Source: a virus. From it: a stretch of 25,967 nucleotides of DNA. Made by a program: the position numbers and the translations under genes. This document shows, piece after piece, positions 1,917 to 25,665 of this stretch. Numbering within the stretch: position 1 is the stretch's first letter; every line of letters starts with the position of its first letter. Under the pieces are notes generated by a model, which did no database searches, had not been told where the DNA came from, and saw nothing but the letters and a program-made list of their open reading frames with translations. The stretch covers positions 1 to 25,967 of IMG/VR virus record IMGVR_UViG_3300021197_000820. One strand, written 5' to 3'.

Positions 1917-2139
1917 CAGCCACATCCTCTACATAGCCCTGCCCGTCACAGGCAGGACACTCGCCGCTGCATGTGTCGATGTATCCGCTGCCAGTCCTGT
2001 AATCAGGCCGTCCATATTCAATCTCGCAGACGCCCTGGCCCATGCACTGTTGGCACTCCAGCAGTTCTTCCCATAAGCCTGGGTGGCGCATGACACGGAC
2101 ATAGCGCGGTGCATCGAACTGATCCCTATCCATGCTCAA
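1909..2139 (-). CDS. small DnaJ-type zinc-finger protein
   Basis: This is a 76-aa protein with two CxxCxGxG motifs ('CQQCMGQG' near residue 29 and 'CPACDGQG' near residue 61), the signature of the cysteine-rich zinc-binding region of DnaJ/Hsp40. Two further cysteines lie between them. It has no J domain, so it is not a full chaperone. Free-standing proteins of this type occur in phages, where their function is generally unknown. It sits between two methyltransferase genes and overlaps both, so it is co-translated with them. Confidence 0.75.
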   Translation of the reverse strand: MSMDRDQFDAPRYVRVMRHPGLWEELLECQQCMGQGVCEIEYGRPDYRTGSGYIDTCSGECPACDGQGYVEDVADE

Positions 2140-3214
2140 CCGCCTTGATCGTCAGGCCGATCTGCATGGCGATTTGCGGTACGATGGCGTTGCCCAGCCC
2201 CTTGAGCCGTGCTGCCCTTTGCTTCACGCCGGTTGCTACTCTTGGGATGTCTCTAGGTTCGTCCAACCAGGTGGATAACCCATCAGCCATTCCACCCATG
2301 CTGGGTTCAACGACCCGCCTGCATGAGTCGCCAAGGTCACGCTGTTCCTCGCTAATTCGGCTGGGCTTTGCCCGTTGTCCTTGTAATCTCTCGCCGTTGG
2401 CGTCGGCCACATCTTCACATCCTGTCGCAAGTCCCTGCTGCCGCCTCCCTTGCTGGGCGGTCTGGTCGTGCCTTGCGATATCGCCGCTGTCGGTGTGGCC
2501 CACATTTTGGGCTGGCCACTCTGCTGCGTTTCCTCGTCCGGCCAGAACCTTACGAACCGATCCAAGCTCACGCTCTTGCCGGTCAGTGGGTTGACCGCTT
2601 CCGTGCTGGTGCTGTTCCGCTCTATGTGATCGCTGGCTGTCGGTGTCGGAATCATTTGACGTGGGTTCGCCCAACTCCCAGCATCCCGATTCCGCATTGA
2701 TGGTGACATCTGGTTCGCCGTCGCTGTCGGTGTGTGCAGCAATAATCCAGATCCTGTCGCGTCGGTGCGGGGCATCAACGGCGCAAGCTGGAACAACAAA
2801 CGGTTGGACGGCGTAGTTTTCGCCTTCCAAGTCAGATAGCACTTGGTCGAGGCCCAAGCTGATGTGTCCAGAAACATTCTCGAAAACGCACCAGCGAGGG
2901 AGTTTTGCTTGCACAATGGTGAAAATTTCTGGCCAGATGTGACGGTCATCTGCCGCGCCTCGCTGCTGCCCGGCAACACTAAATGGCTGGCAGGGATACC
3001 CTGCTGTAAGGATGTCGCAGTCTGGAACAAGTCGTCTTGGGTCACTCGCTAACTCCTTCACGTCTTCTGCAATCGGCACGTCAGGCCAATGCTTGGCCAG
3101 CACCTGACGGCTCCATGCCTCAATGTCACAGAACAGCACCGGCTCTGACAGGCCAGCCCACTGAAAGCCCAAGGCAAAGCCGCCAATGCCTGAACACAAA
3201 TCAACATGACGCAT
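2126..3214 (-). CDS. dcm: DNA (cytosine-5-)-methyltransferase
   Basis: This 362-aa protein transfers a methyl group from AdoMet to C5 of cytosine in a specific site. Motifs appear in order: motif I 'DLCSGIGGF' (5-13), motif IV 'GYPCQPFSVAG' (72-82, catalytic Cys75), motif VI 'ENV' (112-114), motif VIII 'HRRDRIW' (150-156) and the C-terminal motif X-like 'GLGNAIVPQ' (339-347). Residues about 160-330, where the target-recognition domain should be, are unusually hydrophilic and low in complexity (many 'HTDS', 'VADAN' and Gln/Arg runs). That stretch coincides with a second long reading frame on the same strand. The ATG at 3214 follows directly on the VRR-NUC gene; the longer frame to 3274 runs into that gene. 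It probably guards phage DNA against restriction. Confidence 0.95.
   Translation of the reverse strand: MRHVDLCSGIGGFALGFQWAGLSEPVLFCDIEAWSRQVLAKHWPDVPIAEDVKELASDPRRLVPDCDILTAGYPCQPFSVAGQQRGAADDRHIWPEIFTIVQAKLPRWCVFENVSGHISLGLDQVLSDLEGENYAVQPFVVPACAVDAPHRRDRIWIIAAHTDSDGEPDVTINAESGCWELGEPTSNDSDTDSQRSHRAEQHQHGSGQPTDRQERELGSVRKVLAGRGNAAEWPAQNVGHTDSGDIARHDQTAQQGRRQQGLATGCEDVADANGERLQGQRAKPSRISEEQRDLGDSCRRVVEPSMGGMADGLSTWLDEPRDIPRVATGVKQRAARLKGLGNAIVPQIAMQIGLTIKAVEHG
2236..3045 (-). CDS. overprinted ORF inside dcm: PTPTA-repeat phage protein
   Basis: A 269-codon open frame lies entirely inside the cytosine methyltransferase gene, same strand, different phase. It begins with GTG at 3045, and AAGGAG (3053-3058) lies 7 nt upstream, a near-ideal ribosome site inside the methyltransferase coding sequence. 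The product has repeated PTPTA-type motifs at residues 104-109, 132-138 ('IPTPTAS'), 182-188 ('MWATPTA') and 212-219 ('MWPTPTAR'), a central 'CYLTWKAKTTPSNRLLFQL' and a C-terminal 'LNPAWVEWLMGYPPGWT'. I recognise this composite from phage proteins encoded next to dcm genes; their function is unknown to me. Under this frame dcm encodes its hydrophilic variable region. This could be real dual coding or a relic. Confidence 0.7.
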   Translation of the reverse strand: MTQDDLFQTATSLQQGIPASHLVLPGSSEARQMTVTSGQKFSPLCKQNSLAGAFSRMFLDTSAWASTKCYLTWKAKTTPSNRLLFQLAPLMPRTDATGSGLLLHTPTATANQMSPSMRNRDAGSWANPRQMIPTPTASDHIERNSTSTEAVNPLTGKSVSLDRFVRFWPDEETQQSGQPKMWATPTAAISQGTTRPPSKGGGSRDLRQDVKMWPTPTARDYKDNGQSPAELARNSVTLATHAGGSLNPAWVEWLMGYPPGWTNLETSQE

Positions 3215-3218
3215 GAGA

Positions 3219-3641
3219 TCAGCCACCCTCTGCCTCACACATCTGTCTGATGATGTCGGCCTGGCTGGTGCCACGCAGATGCAGCAACGGCTTTAGATAA
3301 GCCTCTACATGCGCCAGGCGCTTGGCAGTGACGCAGTACACACCGCAGCACTTCAGGCGCTCTTGTATGTCTTTCTGGTTTGCTGACAAGCTGCCGCCCT
3401 TGGGGCGCTTCAACTCAATCATGATCGGGCCTTGGTGCGTCGGGTCTTTCCAACCGTGTTGAGGTACAAAGATTTCCAGATCAGGCCAGCCAGCCGCCAT
3501 GCCCAGCTTCTTCAAGCGCAGTTTATATGCAACGTGGCGCTTGCCCTCGTTGGGCGAGTGATGAAACACACTGCCCAGCGGCAAGGCGACCTGGAGCCAA
3601 TGAACTACATATGTTTGCAGTTCATCTTCAGTCATCAGCAT
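3219..3641 (-). CDS. VRR-NUC domain nuclease
   Basis: This is a 140-aa PD-(D/E)XK-type nuclease of the VRR-NUC family. Visible elements are 'HHSPNEG' (about 27-33), 'GWPDLEIF' (51-58, containing the catalytic PD) and 'MIELKRPKGG' (73-82, the ExK motif), then 'LSANQKDIQERL' and a hydrophobic strand. Its length matches stand-alone phage VRR-NUC proteins. The family cleaves structured or branched DNA; the substrate here is not known. It is the second gene of the leftward early operon, overlapping the Cro-like gene by 14 nt and ending just before dcm, so a role in replication or recombination intermediates is likely. Confidence 0.9.
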   Translation of the reverse strand: MLMTEDELQTYVVHWLQVALPLGSVFHHSPNEGKRHVAYKLRLKKLGMAAGWPDLEIFVPQHGWKDPTHQGPIMIELKRPKGGSLSANQKDIQERLKCCGVYCVTAKRLAHVEAYLKPLLHLRGTSQADIIRQMCEAEGG

Positions 3642-3837
3642 AAAAGTCGTTGGGCGTCACCTCGCCAGCACTTAGCTGCACGATCTTACGCATGTTGCTG
3701 GCCTTGGGAATCAAGCGCTGATCATGGCCCACAGGCAGGCACCAGCGGCGCACCACAGTCGCGTGTGCAGCCCCTACAAGCCTTGCCAACTCGCTGTAAG
3801 ACCAGCCCTTACTCTCACGATATTCGTTTAATTGCAT
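3628..3837 (-). CDS. Cro-like HTH transcriptional regulator
   Basis: This is a 69-aa protein with an XRE-type helix-turn-helix: 'SYSELARLVGAAHATVVRRW' (13-32) fits the helix-turn-recognition-helix pattern. It is the first gene of the leftward operon and lies back to back with the larger HTH repressor, the classic position of Cro in a lysis/lysogeny switch. It has no C-terminal sensor or dimerisation extension beyond about 35 residues. It probably binds the palindrome at 3839-3870 next to its own start. Confidence 0.8.
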   Translation of the reverse strand: MQLNEYRESKGWSYSELARLVGAAHATVVRRWCLPVGHDQRLIPKASNMRKIVQLSAGEVTPNDFYADD

Positions 3838-7099: not shown

Positions 7100-7744
7100 A
7101 TGAGTGAACAGGCAAAGATCAACGCCGCAATCAATGCAGCTATGGGTCAAGTGCAGAAACTGGCCAAGGGTGATCGCAACCAGCACGGCAACTACAGCTT
7201 TGCGTCTGTGGATGCGTTTCTGGATATGTGCCGCCCGATCTGCGCTGATCACGGTCTGCACCCGCAAGTTGATAGCATCGGCACAGAGACGTTCAGCGCA
7301 GGCAACTCAAAACTGTGGGCCAAATTCAGCTACAAGATTGGCATGGGCCATGTGTCAGGCGAGAAGACCGATCCTGTCGGCATGGATGTCATGTTGCCCT
7401 TGACGGGCGCACAGACCAGCGGCAGCGCCCAGTCCTATGCCGTGAAGCAGTATCTGCGTGCGCTGTTGCTCATCTCAACAGGTGAGCGTGATGACCCTGA
7501 TTTCCATCAGCCAGCACCAAGTGACGGCGTAGGCGCAAAAGATGCAGCGCCAGCCGCTGATTACGATCTGGATGCGCTGATTGCCAAAATGAAAACATTC
7601 AAATCACTCACCAGGCTGAACACTTGGATCGGTGAGATGAACCCTGTGTTGGTTGCCATGCACTTGGCAAATGATACCGACTACAACCGCTTTTATGCGT
7701 TCTGGAAAAAACAAGAGAAGGACATTCAAAATGGCAGCACCTGA
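7100..7744 (+). CDS. erf: ERF-family single-strand annealing protein
   Basis: This is a 214-aa protein of the ERF recombinase superfamily (P22 Erf-like). The signature segment is 'GAQTSGSAQSYAVKQYLR' (103-120) followed by 'ALLLISTGERDDPDF'. The N-terminus ('MGQVQKLAKGDRNQHGNY') and 'ASVDAFLDMCRPICADHGL' fit the family, and a short helical tail follows a linker. ERF proteins anneal complementary single strands during phage recombination and genome circularisation. The exonuclease earlier in the operon would supply the single strands. The ATG directly follows the DGQHR gene stop. Confidence 0.92.
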   Translation: MSEQAKINAAINAAMGQVQKLAKGDRNQHGNYSFASVDAFLDMCRPICADHGLHPQVDSIGTETFSAGNSKLWAKFSYKIGMGHVSGEKTDPVGMDVMLPLTGAQTSGSAQSYAVKQYLRALLLISTGERDDPDFHQPAPSDGVGAKDAAPAADYDLDALIAKMKTFKSLTRLNTWIGEMNPVLVAMHLANDTDYNRFYAFWKKQEKDIQNGST

Positions 7745-8431: not shown

Positions 8432-8445
8432 CGCCCCTTTCTTTT
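8420..8445 (+). terminator. intrinsic terminator of the rightward operon
   Basis: GGGGCGC (8420-8426), an ACTA loop and GCGCCCC (8431-8437) form a perfect 7-bp GC stem followed by TTTCTTTT. It ends the rightward operon and lies between convergent genes. On the minus strand it has no T-run, so it acts mainly rightward. Confidence 0.85.
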
Positions 8446-9589
8446 ATCCAAATATTGCATTGGCAGCGGCTGACCGCGCCTTTTCTTGCTTGGCCTCATT
8501 CTTGGAATAGTGACCATATTGGCGGTAAGTGAATGATGGGTTGCTGTGGCCCATCAAGGCTGCAACCTCTGCCCAATCCTCACCCAGTGCCGACAACTGA
8601 ACACTTGCAAAAAAGTGCCTCATGTCACCCCAGACCATGCGCTCAATACCGGCACGATTTGATGCGCGTTCGATCAATTCACGCAACGTCTTTTTCTGTT
8701 TTGGCAGGCCAGCGGCTGTAGCAAAAACCAGATCGTCATCGCTTGTGTGGCGGTTTTGCATTTTCAATTCACGCAGTAATTGCATTGTCTCACTTGGCAC
8801 GGGGATGGTGCGAAAACCGCGCTTTGTTTTTGGCTCACCAAGTTCACTGGTTTCTGTCTTGATAGCTTGCTCGATTCGCACCGTGCTTTCCTTGAAGTCA
8901 ACACAGCGCCACGGCAATGCACGCAGTTCACCTTGACGGATTCCAGACGACAACGCTGTCAGCACCATCGCACGGCTTGTCAATGTCTCGCCGGTCAAGC
9001 CCTTTGTCACAAGTTGCTGGACAGTGCTGGGCTGTATCTTTGGCGCACGATCAGCAATCTCTGTTGATAAACCAAAAGACACTTTGTCTAGCGGGTTGAT
9101 GTCAATCCACCCTTTTGCCTGGCAATAATTCAAAAACGCCTTTAACGACTTGATGCGTTTTTCGGCTGTTGCTTTGCTTTTGTTTTCGCTTTTGATCGCC
9201 CGTTTGAAAGCAGCAGCCAAATCATCTTTGTTCGCTTTTGTGATCAGCTTGTCCAGCGCGTGCTTACTGAACATCTTGCCATCAATTCGAATGGCCAATG
9301 CGAAATCCAAACCGCGTTTTGTTTCTTTGAAATGCGACAGTGCGATTTCCTTATCATCAACACGGCGCATTTGTGATTCTAAAAATGCGGCAGCAGCGTT
9401 GGCGCAACTTTTAATTTTCACGGGCTGGGCAATCATGCCTGTAAGGAACTTGGCCTTGAGCATTTCTGCTTCTGCTAAAGCCTCATCCCTTGTCGCAAAA
9501 CTACCATACTTGTCACTTCGACCTACGCGGCTTGCATTGATGCAATAGCAGTTGTTGTCGGCACGAAATCTTACTGGTAAGTCCTTCAT
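8444..9589 (-). CDS. int: phage tyrosine-family integrase
   Basis: This 381-aa site-specific recombinase has an N-terminal arm-binding part (1-60), a core-binding domain (about 65-165) and a catalytic domain. Catalytic residues seen are Arg218 ('SSGIRQGELRAL'), a likely Lys256 in the beta-hairpin, Arg324 and His325 ('WGDMRHFFAS'), His348 ('LMGHSN') and nucleophile Tyr358 ('YRQYGHY'). The first His of the usual HxxR box is Gly321 here. The start at 9589 has GGGAG upstream; the longer frame to 9682 would read through a direct-repeat cluster. It would integrate the phage into a tRNA-Asp gene using the att site at 9747-9794. Confidence 0.95.
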   Translation of the reverse strand: MKDLPVRFRADNNCYCINASRVGRSDKYGSFATRDEALAEAEMLKAKFLTGMIAQPVKIKSCANAAAAFLESQMRRVDDKEIALSHFKETKRGLDFALAIRIDGKMFSKHALDKLITKANKDDLAAAFKRAIKSENKSKATAEKRIKSLKAFLNYCQAKGWIDINPLDKVSFGLSTEIADRAPKIQPSTVQQLVTKGLTGETLTSRAMVLTALSSGIRQGELRALPWRCVDFKESTVRIEQAIKTETSELGEPKTKRGFRTIPVPSETMQLLRELKMQNRHTSDDDLVFATAAGLPKQKKTLRELIERASNRAGIERMVWGDMRHFFASVQLSALGEDWAEVAALMGHSNPSFTYRQYGHYSKNEAKQEKARSAAANAIFG

Positions 9590-9625
9590 TGCTTTGCTCC
9601 CATTTGATGTATCAACAAGAGCATA

Positions 9626-9642
9626 TTGACATAAAAAGTCAA
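9626..9642. promoter_or_regulatory. inverted repeat upstream of int
   Basis: TTGAC (9626-9630) and GTCAA (9638-9642) form a 5-bp inverted repeat with an A/T centre, 37 bp before the integrase start. Read leftward it includes TTGACT, a possible -35 box, but no convincing -10 at standard spacing was found. It is a candidate operator or promoter for int. Confidence 0.35.
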
Positions 9643-9653
9643 ACCCTACAAAT

Positions 9654-9677
9654 AAAACTGGACTGAAACTGGACTGG
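9654..9677. repeat. direct-repeat cluster A (candidate integrase arm site)
   Basis: Two copies of an 11-bp unit (ACTGGACTGAA type) lie in tandem. The same unit occurs three times in the same orientation at 9874-9908. The two clusters flank the tRNA-like att core at about 70 and 80 bp, matching the P and P' arm layout of phage attP sites. Confidence 0.65.
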
Positions 9678-9680
9678 CAC

Positions 9681-9716
9681 AAAAAAACAGCCCCCAGCCG
9701 GTTTAGGCCGAGGGCT
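9681..9716 (-). terminator. terminator of the late operon
   Basis: On the minus strand AGCCC (9716-9712) through GGGCT (9693-9689) forms a stem with an inner CGGCC/GGCTG part, followed by seven T (9687-9681). It would stop late transcription arriving from 9910 after it crosses the att region. On the plus strand a GTTTTT run also follows, so it may work in both directions. Confidence 0.75.
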
Positions 9717-23472: not shown

Positions 23473-23946
23473 TTACATTGGGAAATCGCAGATGATTTCC
23501 TTGTCGCTGATGTCGCCAGCAATGGCACAGACGTTGTCTGTCACATCTGCTGAAACATCCAGCTTGCCGTCTGCTGAACCAGTTGGCGTCAGCGGATCAC
23601 CGTCAGCGCCTGCTGTCAGGGCTGCGGCCATCGTTGCCATGCCTTTGATCTGCACCCAGCAATACTGGCCGTCAGTCGGCGCTGATTGCAGAATGCCTGC
23701 ACCGATCTCAATAGAGTCGGACAGATCAGACGTCACCTTGAACAGTTTGTAGCCATCCAAAGTGTAATAGTAAGCGGCGTTACCGCTTGCTGCCGCAACG
23801 CTTCCACTGCCAGTGTCATACTGGACATATTTGTAGATGCGTGTGCCGCTGGTGTCGTCAACGATGGCACCAAGCTGACCCAACTGAAATTCAGGGGTCG
23901 TGTGAACGGCGGTTGGGTCAATGCCCATTACTGCTGCAATTGTCAT
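23473..23946 (-). CDS. head decoration-like protein
   Basis: This is a 157-aa, small-residue-rich, beta-rich protein with no Cys cluster except near the C-terminus and no membrane segment ('FQLGQLGAIVDDTSGTRIYK', 'CWVQIKGMATMAAALTAGAD'). It follows the major capsid gene at 15 nt with a GGGGAA ribosome site and precedes a strong terminator, so it is made at high level like the capsid. Position and composition fit a capsid-stabilising/decoration protein. I do not know its exact family. Confidence 0.75.
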   Translation of the reverse strand: MTIAAVMGIDPTAVHTTPEFQLGQLGAIVDDTSGTRIYKYVQYDTGSGSVAAASGNAAYYYTLDGYKLFKVTSDLSDSIEIGAGILQSAPTDGQYCWVQIKGMATMAAALTAGADGDPLTPTGSADGKLDVSADVTDNVCAIAGDISDKEIICDFPM

Positions 23947-23961
23947 AACAGTTCCCCTTTC

Positions 23962-25665
23962 TTATGTATGGATCACGCCTTGGAGAGCGCGGTTTGAACA
24001 GGTCAGATTTCCTGACCAGAACATTGGCGTTACCATAGCGTCTTGGTTGACGGACATCTTTGCTTCACCTGGAACGAAATCCCGTGACGCTGCTACCTCA
24101 AGACGGAGATAGTCAGTGTTGAGGAAATACATCCGGTCAGTGTTACAAGATGAATCAAACACCACATCGCTGTTCAGATACTGGACGCTGGTGAAACCAG
24201 AGTTGGCCAGATCGTCACTGGTGATGCGCTGGATGGCCTGAAGGCTACCCAGAAATGCTTTATCGTTTACCTTCAATCAGGGTCGCTAGCCCTAACCCGC
24301 CTTTCGGCTGCCCTGTCTTTCGATATTCAGGGACGAGACTATATCATCACCCCGTTGGGGTGCTGTGCGCTTCGAGCCGCTTGGCTCTACTCCATAAAGG
24401 ATAGTCGTTGAACCTTCCCCGTTTGGGGCTTGGCTGCTGATTACCATATCTTTCGACTTAGGCTTCCCAGCAATTCACACAGTTTGCAATGCAGATTGCT
24501 CTGCAATGGCCCTAGTGCATTAAGGCATTTGTGCCAGCCATGATCAGATCAGGGCTGTCTGCACCACGAACCAGTTGCAGATACATATTATTCATATCTG
24601 CTTGGACGTTTGTGGTGCTGAACGCGCTTGACGTTGCAGTGGTTTGTACGTTTTGCCAAAACGTAAATGTGCTTGAGTTAATTCCACCTCGTTGTGTTCA
24701 CCTTGGTTCGCTAAACCAAAGCCGCTTTCGCTGCTGCATATCACTATGCAGACCAGATCATATCATAACCCCTGTGGGGTTCTCTGCGCTTCGGAACCGC
24801 TTGGCTCCTACTTCCTTTCGGAATGATCGTTGCACCTTCCCCTTTCGGGGCTTGGCTCAGGATTATCTCAGTGAGACTTCCCCTGAATTCACAGAGTTTT
24901 TCAAAATAGATTGCTCTATTAGGCCGCTAAATTAACGGTGCCGGTGCCTGCATCAGCCACGATTAGCTGAAGACCACCGATTTCTTTGCCACTTGATCCT
25001 GTACCATCAGAATAGATTGATGTGGACAGGCTGTTCATCATCGACTTTTCAAGCACGTTGATGCGTGCCTCAAGCAGATTGATGATGGCCTCTGTGCCAG
25101 AGTTTTTGACTTGCTCTAGACCAGAAATGGTGACGTTACCTGCAAGCTGGCGGTATTCGAATACGGCAGCCGAAAGCACGTCTGATGGTGAGACATCAAG
25201 TGTCTCATAGCCGCTATAGAACTGCACAGTCCCATTGTCGGCATACTCAAGTTCACGGACAATATCGCGTCCTGTTACAGACGTTTGATTGCCATTCTCG
25301 CGCAAGCGCCGCAACAGTGCGTTGTGGTTGCTTACGTTGTCAGAAAGGGTCCGACTCCTGTTTCTCACATTGCATTCAATCGACGTCGCTACTGCCGACC
25401 AGTTCTTCAATGAACTTCTGACACTCTCATGCCAGCTTGGACTATATCTTCACCCTGCATAACAGGGGCCATGCGCTTCGACTGGGCTTCCAGCCTACTC
25501 CTTTCGGATAGTCTCTGAACGTTCCCTCACGGGCTTCGCTGCTGATTGCGCTCGACTTGACGTTAGCGTGTTCCAGCAATTCACATGGTTTGCTTTTGTT
25601 TATTGCTAAACAATGACCCCGATTAAGGTAGTCGTGACGATTTCTGAAAGATTAGGACTAGCCAT
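23962..25665 (-). CDS. major capsid protein, four exons split by three group I introns
   Basis: Exons (minus strand): 25665-25626 (40 nt), 25367-24935 (433), 24689-24523 (167), 24263-23962 (302); total 942 nt, 313 aa plus stop. The joined protein begins 'MASPNLSEIVTTTLRNRSRT' and continues with 'RELEYADNGTVQFYSGYETL', 'VTISGLEQVKNSG', 'SIYSDGTGSSGKEIGGLQ', 'GTVGGINSSTFTFWQN', 'LVRGADSPDLIMAGTNAYKA', 'GSLQAIQRITSDD' and 'GNLTCSNRALQGVIHT'. It matches, end to end, a common podophage capsid family as I remember it. Unspliced, exons 1-3 run into stops soon after each junction. Ribosome site AAGGAG lies before ATG 25665. Junction positions are predicted from the U/G rule and reading frame. Confidence 0.93.
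24264..24522 (-). ncRNA. group I intron 3 of the major capsid gene (IA-type)
   Basis: 259 nt, no ORF. Exon ends GCCT, pairing with GGGC (P1, U-G at the splice site); P2 TGCAGA/TCTGCA with GCAA loop; P3 CTGTGTG (24482-24476) with CGCACAG (24369-24363); core GAATTGCTGG and AATCAGCAGCC; P6 CCCC/GGGG; P7 GACTAT (24406-24401) with ATAGTC (24342-24337); P7.1 TCC/GGA; P8 CACCCC/GGGGTG. Further hairpins after P7 (CCCTG/CAGGG, GCC-GAAA-GGC) are P9-like. It ends in G at 24264. Confidence 0.93.
24690..24934 (-). ncRNA. group I intron 2 of the major capsid gene (IA-type)
   Basis: 245 nt, no ORF. Exon ends CCGT, pairing with GCGG (P1, U-G at the splice site); P2 AATAGA/TCTATT with GCAA loop; P3 CTCTGTG (24896-24890) with CGCAGAG (24788-24782); core GAATTCAGG and AATCCTGAGCC; P6 CCCC-GAAA-GGGG; P7 GATCAT (24828-24823) with ATGATC (24761-24756); P7.1 TTCC/GGAA; P8 AACCCC/GGGGTT. 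P4 and P7 differ from introns 1 and 3 on both strands, keeping pairing. It ends in G at 24690. Confidence 0.92.
25368..25625 (-). ncRNA. group I intron 1 of the major capsid gene (IA-type)
   Basis: 258 nt, no ORF. Elements on the minus strand: exon ends ACCT, pairing with GGGT (P1, U-G at the splice site); P2 hairpin with GCAA loop (25596-25613); P3 CCATGTG (25588-25582) with CGCATGG (25475-25469); P4/P6 core GAATTGCTGG and AATCAGCAGC; P6 loop CCC/GGG; P7 GACTAT (25513-25508) with ATAGTC (25445-25440); the classic TTCAGAGACTA and AAGATATAGTCC elements; P7.1 TCC/GGA; P8 CCCTG/CAGGG. P7.1 and P7.2 place it in subgroup IA. It ends in G at 25368. Confidence 0.93.

Follow-up and report, generated by a model that had tools for sequence, protein, structure and literature searches.

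How group I introns that lack an endonuclease persist, and how they arrive at new sites, is an open question, and it is raised here by a phage major capsid gene that lies in four pieces between positions 23,962 and 25,665 of the window (the whole stretch of 25,967 nucleotides that we analyzed). The window is a 26-kb linear record and is perhaps a fragment. With a probability of about 0.9, we read this gene as being cut by three endonuclease-free, IA-like introns that most likely self-splice and that belong to a set spreading at six sites of the gene by recombination and by a guide-led route.

The capsid gene and its three introns

On the minus strand, exon 1 (25665 to 25626; codons 1 to 13 and the first base of codon 14), exon 2 (25367 to 24935), exon 3 (24689 to 24523), and exon 4 (24263 to 23962, with TAA at 23962 to 23964) join into 942 nt that encode 313 amino acids and a stop codon. 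The peptide of exon 1 is found unbroken in relatives, and the other exons are placed by the joined reading frame and by uninterrupted relatives. In a profile search, the joined protein matched PHROG 9953, "major head protein," over residues 1 to 311 (E = 5.9e-97), and no Pfam family matched it. The best uninterrupted relative in IMG/VR is 99% identical over residues 1 to 313; thus, the junctions restore an existing protein. The initial annotation had proposed that four minus-strand segments make up a 313-amino-acid capsid protein, and this is borne out to the base; the PHROG match and related capsids, which are without the intervening segments, agree with it.

The claim that each of the three intervening pieces is a group I intron also held in a covariance-model search with cmscan, with scores of 80.0 to 91.7 bits against a gathering score of 50 for RF00028. 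Intron A (258 nt; 25368 to 25625, minus strand) follows the first base of codon 14 and gave 84.4 bits (match at 25418 to 25646; E = 2e-20), intron C (245 nt; 24690 to 24934, minus strand) follows the second base of codon 158 and gave 80.0 bits (24734 to 24964; E = 4.3e-19), and intron D (259 nt; 24264 to 24522, minus strand) follows the first base of codon 214 and gave 91.7 bits (24311 to 24532; E = 1.3e-22). No other Rfam match in the window exceeded its gathering score. As had been noted, all three introns are preceded by U and end in G, as do all 36 introns that we extracted from the clade, where 27 boundaries were found with a search bonus for U and G and the remaining 9 were fixed from codon and phase without it.

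The clade introns are 205 to 271 nt long and contain no frame for a homing endonuclease of their own; the longest ATG-initiated frame in ten introns (those of the window and of contigs L093, L200, and L253) has 51 codons. The introns most likely leave the late mRNA by guanosine-started, two-step self-splicing, and the removal of all three in this way would therefore yield one 313-amino-acid capsid protein. The supply of capsid may hang on three or four such ribozyme reactions.

Elsewhere in the window, a tyrosine integrase gene (8444 to 9682, minus strand; phrog_1, E = 2.2e-43; PF00589) supports the temperate lifestyle that had been predicted for this phage. The alphaproteobacterial host predicted with it stands as a suggestion from distant relatives at 44 to 50% identity, which also include phages of Myxococcus and Stenotrophomonas.

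Ribozyme fold and guide pairing

Covariation was analyzed in 13 introns from sites A, C, D, and E. Their consensus structure contains helices like P2 to P9, P7, and, in the position of P7.1/P7.2, two small helices; the helix names are our presumed assignments. In this structure, 98.5% of cells are paired, compared to 32 to 46% in controls in which the partners were slid, and 31 of the 53 pairs have changes on both sides. On four of five covariation measures none of 500 shuffles scored as high, and on the fifth the introns were not above the shuffles (155/500 as high). The group I core helices that had been claimed are thus recovered, with P3, P4, P6, P7, and P8 conserved and with compensatory changes among those 31 pairs. 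P7, written as a pseudoknot, has 5 pairs and is 100% paired, and helices 8 and 9, between P7 and P3, have 3 and 5 pairs with 100% of cells paired. We take one or two extra helices, P7.1/P7.2, between P7 and P3 to be the anatomy of subgroup IA, which is presumably common in phages, and by these extra helices the introns appear IA-like. Minimum-energy folding of intron A together with the 5' exon lent no support, the energy being unremarkable (z = -1.53; 14 of 200 shuffles did equally well).

We propose an internal guide for each intron of the window, all on the minus strand: GGGU in intron A (25616 to 25619), which can pair with the 5' exon ACCU at 25626 to 25629; GCGG in intron C (24924 to 24927), which can pair with CCGU at 24935 to 24938; and GGGC in intron D (24509 to 24512), which can pair with GCCU at 24523 to 24526. 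The putative P1 is 4 bp long with a terminal U.G in all three, the proposed guides vary together with the exons between the sites, and intron E has the same guide and 5' target as intron D. At site A of contig L063, read by eye, guide and exon have both changed (GACUU/GAGUC). Random 8-mers of the capsid gene that end in T reach a 4-bp match in 112 of 224 cases with the guide of intron A, in 35 of 224 with that of intron C, and in 45 of 224 with that of intron D, and the guide pairing is therefore a weak argument when taken alone. Intron A could pair just as well with the exons at D and E; for introns B and F, the best stretch of 4 bp found is off the expected place, where only 3 bp form. A P1 guide pairing is nevertheless favored, given the invariant exon bases described below and the double change in L063.

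Six sites, exon flanks, and routes of spread

In the capsid clade, 25 of 114 contigs bear 43 capsid-gene introns at six sites, A to F, and one complete capsid gene has four. Besides the window, introns are found at site A in nine other contigs (one cut by the contig end and one just 80% identical), at site C in six (one cut by the contig end), and at site D in five; site E is occupied in 14 contigs from 14 dataset numbers. All 37 RF00028 matches in the 23 scanned records are in the capsid gene, with one record having none, and intron B falls under the Rfam cutoff in three contigs (33.8, 39.7, and 43.5 bits). Intron presence is patchy on the capsid tree, with 5, 5, 6, 5, and 8 changes at sites A, B, C, D, and E for 8, 5, 6, 6, and 10 carriers, respectively. 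Judged from these sequences, the window gene represents one of the states of a system that is polymorphic at six sites, and the capsid gene looks like a favored home for these mobile RNAs because related phages have up to four introns over six positions.

Intron-bearing alleles have silent junction bases in common that are mostly absent from empty alleles. The last four exon bases are ACCT at site A in 8 of 8 intron-bearing and 0 of 87 intron-free alleles, CGGT at site B (5/5 and 1/97), CCGT at site C (6/6 and 5/100), GCCT at site E (13/13 and 0/98), and CGGT at site F (1/1 and 0/105). Site D is the exception, with GCCT in 6 of 6 intron-bearing alleles and a target that is common in empty ones (69/102). 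Independent tree pairs agree with the target in 5 of 5 cases at A, 5 of 5 at B, and 6 of 6 at E (sign-test P of 0.06, 0.06, and 0.03, respectively), and no pair opposes it at any site, the pairs at C and D being partly uninformative. Contig L063, whose intron ends were read by eye, was excluded from the flank tables and tree pairs.

When each intron-bearing allele was compared with its nearest intron-free allele, 152 of the 154 codon differences within 12 nt of the junction were silent (36 comparisons; six intron/site cases that lacked full flanks or a relative to compare with were omitted). Over the same distance, mean identity among intron-bearing alleles is 0.93 to 1.0 at A, B, and E and, at C and D, on the 3' side, compared to 0.63 to 0.87 against the five nearest intron-free alleles, except on the 3' side of E, where both values are 1.0; the 5' sides of C and D show little or no contrast. 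At site E, 24 nt around the junction are identical in all 13 intron-bearing alleles with full flanks, and these same alleles differ by a mean of 16 to 19% at 75 to 300 nt upstream of it. Contigs L145, which has intron D, and L039, which lacks it, differ at 5 of 939 capsid-gene nucleotides, three of which (639, 642, and 645) lie by the junction at 640.

We also found one intron at two sites. Intron B of contig L256 and intron F of contig L200 differ at 4 of 205 nt, and their sites are 228 nt apart; both lie after ACGGT and before ACAG, a common target of 9 nt. In introns D and E, the P1-P2 stretch is nearly identical and the cores are 67 to 69% identical, and in the intron tree D joins L117, whose intron sits in a different capsid gene, and E joins L160 and L106. 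Since the tree does not join D and E alone and their cores have diverged to this extent, we rejected them as sister introns, and a whole-intron copy at a second site therefore holds for B and F only. Guides and cores have apparently been mixed between introns.

On our reading, introns come and go at six sites of the capsid gene. Spread at a given site between phages most likely occurs by DNA recombination that carries just ~12 nt of exon, and an ERF-family single-strand annealing recombinase encoded in the window (7100 to 7744, plus strand; PF04404, E = 9.9e-12) is a candidate helper for such short-homology exchange. Guide pairing is the most likely way to new sites, the intron reverse-splicing into an RNA that has a matching short target. 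Such a step needs reverse transcription. As an explanation of how introns without an endonuclease last and move to new places, reverse splicing has been argued from phylogeny for fungal rDNA introns (PMC1299323; PMC3984707).

Collaborative homing offers another route, one that we regard as possible if short of probable: a free-standing homing endonuclease, encoded by the phage itself or by a co-infecting one and acting in trans, would cut empty alleles, and repair would copy the intron with a short stretch of exon, without reverse splicing. The shared flanks of intron-bearing alleles fit DNA-level conversion of this kind, GIY-YIG nucleases lie beside the intron in some relatives (L120 and L142), and the process has been described for T3 and a cyanophage, according to PMC10448857. 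However, HNH (PF01844), HNH_3 (PF13392), and GIY-YIG (PF01541) matched 0 of 22 records (15 intron-bearing and 7 intron-free) and LAGLIDADG_3 matched 0 of 24, many of these records being fragments; the same GIY-YIG search does detect L120 and L142. Nor is the near-identity of introns B and F, at two sites with 9 shared nucleotides, easily explained by homing. The matching exon flanks could also stem from selection after insertion, in that introns inserted wherever they were tolerated and silent mutations favorable to splicing were fixed later. The near absence of coding changes by the junctions and the ability of the proposed guides to pair with the changed bases speak for such selection, which we nonetheless consider unlikely: the 24-nt identity in all site-E alleles exists despite their upstream divergence, and some changed bases, such as 642 and 645 in L145, are outside the 4-bp guide pairing.

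It is highly improbable that the intervening pieces are assembly artifacts, inteins, or the remains of a decayed capsid gene. Contigs L228, L253, and L260 end inside an intron, and assembly is therefore hard here, yet the same introns recur at the same sites in many separate datasets, as the 14 dataset numbers at site E illustrate. In each of introns A, C, and D, the continued exon frame meets stop codons, and they are therefore not inteins. The joined exons match whole genes at 84 to 99% identity (best 80 relatives listed), and, given these matches, the repeated datasets, and the covarying helices, we rejected both assembly error and a decayed gene.

The reading that we prefer, self-splicing introns spread by recombination and guide pairing, has a bolder extension that we put forward tentatively and think somewhat unlikely: an endonuclease-free lineage specialized on phage capsid genes that moves at the RNA level and exchanges guides and cores separately. 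The random 8-mer control of the guides and the count of host genes by clusters (below) made this extension slightly less probable. A freed intron, led by its short guide, would reverse-splice into capsid mRNA, the most abundant late message, of its own phage or of a co-infecting one; after reverse transcription and recombination, it would enter the capsid gene and sweep through alleles with a footprint of ~12 nt. Separate exchange of the guide (P1-P2) and the catalytic core (P3-P9) would re-aim cores at new sites. If this were true, the capsid gene would play the part for these phage introns that rRNA plays for nuclear group I introns. Natural alleles are available side by side, with the gene empty or occupied by between one and four introns, two near-identical alleles of which one has an intron, and one intron at two sites; gain, loss, and re-targeting are therefore testable in one short gene.

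Related introns and known systems

Among relatives of these introns, 27 of 43 host-gene clusters are capsid genes and 6 are without an assigned host gene, where 28 loci were called capsid solely by containing a relative of a scanned capsid fragment. Clusters were used because the 52 scanned loci included near-duplicates; loci with host fragments of <58 amino acids (L177, L159, L178, and L162) were left unscanned, and the fragments scanned for L120 and L142 are nucleases, which do not show the host gene. A looser sample, drawn with a P7 pattern, has at least 77 loci, at least 80 distinct matches, and 71 host fragments of at least 60 amino acids, and it omits at least three capsid-gene loci already in the first set (L084 to L086). 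Among the matches listed for it, phrog_1328 is found in 8 of 71 host fragments, psbA in 5, and DNA polymerase phrog_262 in 3, and HNH families are frequent; five capsid families sum to 17 of 71 if non-overlapping (among 25 families listed, with 96 further). Relatives of these introns thus appear often to sit in other capsid genes, with a weaker capsid bias in the looser sample.

Mycobacteriophage LittleE has an intron in its major capsid gene that the authors of that work consider most likely group I and whose splicing was demonstrated both by RT-PCR and by sequencing the N terminus of the capsid protein; the same source mentions lactococcal phage Tuc2009 as having a capsid-gene intron (PMC3706429). 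As described there, LittleE has one 819-bp intron with an endonuclease-like frame, whereas the introns here number three per gene (four in a relative), are 205 to 271 nt long, and are without such a frame. The tape-measure gene of Vibrio phage ICP1 is reported to have four exons and three introns, with splicing shown and with intron content that varies between isolates (PMC10448857). It resembles our case in having three introns in one structural gene and differs in that, by that account, one or two of them hold an HNH nuclease; here the host is a capsid gene, no nuclease lies inside, and occupancy differs over six sites. The suggestion that the arrangement may be undescribed thus fails for a capsid-gene intron and for a three-intron phage gene, both in print (PMC3706429; PMC10448857), and stands for the rest: as far as a search of the open literature shows, the six-site polymorphism, the concentration in capsid genes, and the apparent mixing of guides and cores are new. 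Jug gut phages are described as having many short group I introns (mean, ~206 nt; ~18.5 per genome), with splicing reads for 37 of 76 introns in three samples (PMC12363816). For huge phages, that source names terL, nrdD, and DNA polymerase, in contrast to the capsid gene here.

In likeness to our gene, staphylococcal phage Twort has several group I introns in one gene. Two introns are described in its nrdE. Twort also has a three-intron gene; the genes are other ones, the host is Gram positive, and the likeness is one of description, not of sequence.

Capsid genes serve as markers for counting and classifying phages, and annotation can break those that bear introns. In phage C72C1 (OQ984150.1), a related intron, which matches 83% of intron D at 75% identity, splits the major head protein, which is annotated as two coding sequences; the capsid family (phrog_1328), the site, and the guide region are other ones.

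The gene next downstream of the capsid gene in the window (23473 to 23946, minus strand) encodes 157 amino acids and has no PHROG match. In contig L063, which was outside the 23-record scan, the gene at the corresponding place, as judged by eye, has a group I intron of its own.

Capsid gene and ribozyme fold

The major capsid gene of the window lies at 25665-23962 on the minus strand as four coding pieces, which join into 942 nt encoding a 313-aa protein when introns A (25368-25625), C (24690-24934), and D (24264-24522), all on the same strand, are left out. A match to PHROG 9953 (E 5.9e-97) identifies the joined product as a major head protein. Uninterrupted relatives are numerous in IMG/VR, and since they are up to 99% identical across residues 1-313, the joined sequence corresponds to a real protein, with junctions set by homology. 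We found stops in the exon-frame reading of every intron. When the 26-kb window was scanned with Rfam, the group I intron model RF00028 matched all three removed pieces and was the one family to exceed its gathering score.

We aligned 13 introns representing four sites (A2) and handled P7 as a pseudoknot; 98.5% of cells were paired in the consensus structure, and 31 of 53 base pairs showed changes on both sides. As a control, sliding the partners by 1-3 columns reduced pairing to 32-46%, and the observed covariation score was reached by 0 of 500 shuffles. One of five covariation measures, further pair types, did not exceed shuffled values (155 of 500), and intron A, folded as a single sequence together with its exon, had an unremarkable energy. 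The consensus also contains additional helices at the place of P7.1/P7.2, a feature of subgroup IA. A 2025 database paper assigns more than half of viral group I introns to IA2 (PMC11835236). As members of a family of known chemistry, the introns are predicted to self-splice.

Intron polymorphism and exon flanks

Our clade set contained 114 contigs: 98 found via protein similarity, 15 via intron sequence, and the window. The 15, two of which also appeared in protein searches, are intron-bearing by construction. At least one capsid-gene intron was present in 25 of the 114, giving 43 introns (40 full length) from an intron-state table of 44, after one in the gene next to the capsid gene of contig L063 was left out. 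Among contigs from protein searches, 11 of 100 were intron-bearing, a lower bound because interruption lowers the rank of a gene in such searches. Of the six sites, A is at codon 14 and occupied in 10 contigs, B at codon 60 (in 5), F at codon 136 (in 1), C at codon 158 (in 7), D at codon 214 (in 6), and E at codon 294 (in 14). The window combines A+C+D; other contigs hold A+D+E (L093, L128), A+B+C (L102), A+B+C+E (L253, its intron A cut by the contig end), and B+C+D+E (L263, a complete gene holding four introns). When 23 intron-bearing records, L063 not among them, were scanned with RF00028, all 37 matches, in 22 records, fell by position inside the capsid gene. Contig L063 has one group I intron at site A and another in the next gene, so the hot region may include one more gene downstream; this second intron (positions 3538-3818 of IMGVR_UViG_3300030328_001354, 82.7 bits, ends placed by eye) is in the small gene that directly follows the capsid gene. 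In L228, L253, and L260, contig ends fall within capsid introns, so these may be break points for assemblers, and the number of multi-intron alleles may be underestimated.

At each site, intron-bearing alleles agree in their last four exon bases. The exon end is ACCT in 8/8 intron-bearing versus 0/87 empty alleles at site A, CGGT in 5/5 versus 1/97 at B, CCGT in 6/6 versus 5/100 at C, GCCT in 13/13 versus 0/98 at E, and CGGT in 1/1 versus 0/105 at F; site D is the exception, with GCCT in 6/6 but also common in empty alleles (69/102). Within 12 nt of the junction, 152 of 154 changed codons were silent in 36 comparisons of an intron-bearing with the nearest empty allele. Over this distance, mean identity at A, B, E, and the 3' side of C and D was 0.93 to 1.0 among intron-bearing alleles and 0.63 to 0.87 between these and their five nearest empty alleles, with the 3' side of E at 1.0 in both comparisons. 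For C and D, the 5' side showed a reversed or slight contrast, and more than 45 nt from the junctions the order reversed in 24 of 25 bins. Two capsid genes, L145 with intron D and L039 without it, differ at 5 of 939 nt, three of them (639, 642, and 645) beside the junction at 640; identity in the two long flanking matches is 95.4% and 98.5%.

A tree of 107 capsid genes, built with the sites masked, shows intron presence changing 5 times at A, 5 at B, 6 at C, 5 at D, and 8 at E. The target accompanied the intron in every independent pair at site A (5/5, p 0.06), site B (5/5, p 0.06), and site E (6/6, p 0.03), and no pair opposed this link, those at C and D being partly uninformative. Proposed guides able to pair with the exon ends are GGGU in intron A, GCGG in intron C, and GGGC in introns D and E; at site A of L063 we identified, by eye, exon GACUU and guide GAGUC. 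A 4-bp guide match alone is weak, as 35 to 112 of 224 random capsid-gene 8-mers attain 4 bp, and introns B and F have only three guide pairs at the expected place.

Proposed spread within and between sites

Within a given site, introns most likely spread by an exchange of DNA that brings along a short exon footprint. An ERF annealing recombinase, encoded by the window phage, could favor exchange via short homologies. Same-site spread may instead be driven by a nuclease acting in trans, and in relatives L120 and L142 a GIY-YIG homing endonuclease does lie next to or within an intron, a possible donor of mobility. Against such a nuclease, HNH, HNH_3, and GIY-YIG were found in 0 of 22 records and LAGLIDADG_3 in 0 of 24, many of them fragments, while the GIY-YIG search was positive where expected. 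The window also encodes a C5-cytosine DNA methyltransferase (PF00145) at 2126-3274 on the minus strand.

In addition to exchange at existing sites, new sites would be reached by guide-led reverse splicing, which best explains introns B and F and the common target of D and E. Intron B of L256 and L259 differs from intron F of L200 at 4 of 205 nt, fewer than the 12 and 16 nt separating the L256 copy from the B introns of other contigs, and both are preceded by ACGGT and followed by ACAG. Three viral contigs share an exact 18-mer of this intron, in each case within the capsid gene of the clade; the B copies of L256, L259, and L263 carry variants and were found through other searches. The B/F introns (L102, L200, L253, L256, L259, and L263) are a second, shorter type, 205 nt long, that invaded the same gene and, by eye, seems to be without P7.1/P7.2 helices. 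Three of the six copies score under the Rfam cutoff, so general scans miss such introns.

Introns D and E have a nearly identical P1-P2 stretch and the common target GCCT|AT. Their guide regions are 75 to 77% identical overall, where 51 comparable pairs average 48% and reach 63% at most; their cores are 67 to 69% identical. The opposite holds for intron D and an intron in the unrelated capsid gene of L117 (cores 92 to 93%, guide regions 39%). By eye, the guide of the L117 intron, GCGCAAC, can form seven base pairs with the end of its own exon, GUUGCGU. These few cases suggest that guide and core are exchanged separately.

Host genes of related introns

Precedents exist in the literature: a capsid intron with proven splicing in LittleE and, cited in the same paper, a capsid-gene intron in lactococcal phage Tuc2009 (PMC3706429), one ICP1 phage gene with three introns (PMC10448857), and intron-rich phages (PMC12363816). 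In a search mostly of open-access literature, neither multi-intron capsid genes nor a capsid-centered intron lineage turned up. The introns themselves are a known kind, and what appears to be new is their arrangement and dynamics.

A pattern search with intron sequence retrieved 97 loci, of which 88 lie outside the clade. PHROG scans of intron-adjacent fragments covered 52 of these 88 (57 including five from other searches), and 40 of the 52 had major head protein hosts (families 1328, 3437, 267, 9953, 14242, 1357, and 10). The remaining 12 comprised three without a match, two nucleases, and one each of major tail, glycosyltransferase, RNR, unknown, DNA polymerase, terminase, and head-tail adaptor. 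Because the scanned loci include near-duplicates, all 88 were clustered at 80% protein identity, yielding 43 host-gene clusters (27 capsid, 10 other, 6 without assignment); counted by locus, capsid hosts number 68 (28 assigned through similarity only), other hosts 14, and loci without assignment 6. The capsid bias was weaker among the matches listed for a looser P7 pattern, so the capsid concentration is a trait of this intron lineage and is partly owed to the pattern used. Abundant capsid mRNA could underlie the preference. In the looser sample (alignment A3), at least 5 of 71 host fragments matched psbA (photosystem II D1), which, like capsid, is a strongly expressed phage gene.

Rfam also placed introns close together in L160 and L152 (three each) and in L106, L155, L097, L124, and L099 (two each). 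These adjoin capsid fragments of other families (phrog_1328, 3437, 267, and 14242), and by this proximity are candidates for multi-intron capsid genes, which may extend beyond the clade.

In an intron tree (SH-aLRT only, short search, some labels default), rows group by site, with support of 97 to 100 for A, C, and E and 77 for D. Intron D is closest to the capsid intron of L117, E to the capsid introns of L160 and L106, and C to rows with mixed hosts (tail fiber, tail sheath, unmatched, and capsid). Intron A is nearest to the same-site intron of L063, followed by that of phage C72C1 with the L063 next-gene intron. In C72C1 (OQ984150.1, 2153-3354), the intron-split major head protein is entered in GenBank as two CDS with small minus-strand ORFs annotated between them, and splicing would, by eye, restore the peptide E-V-A-Y-Q.
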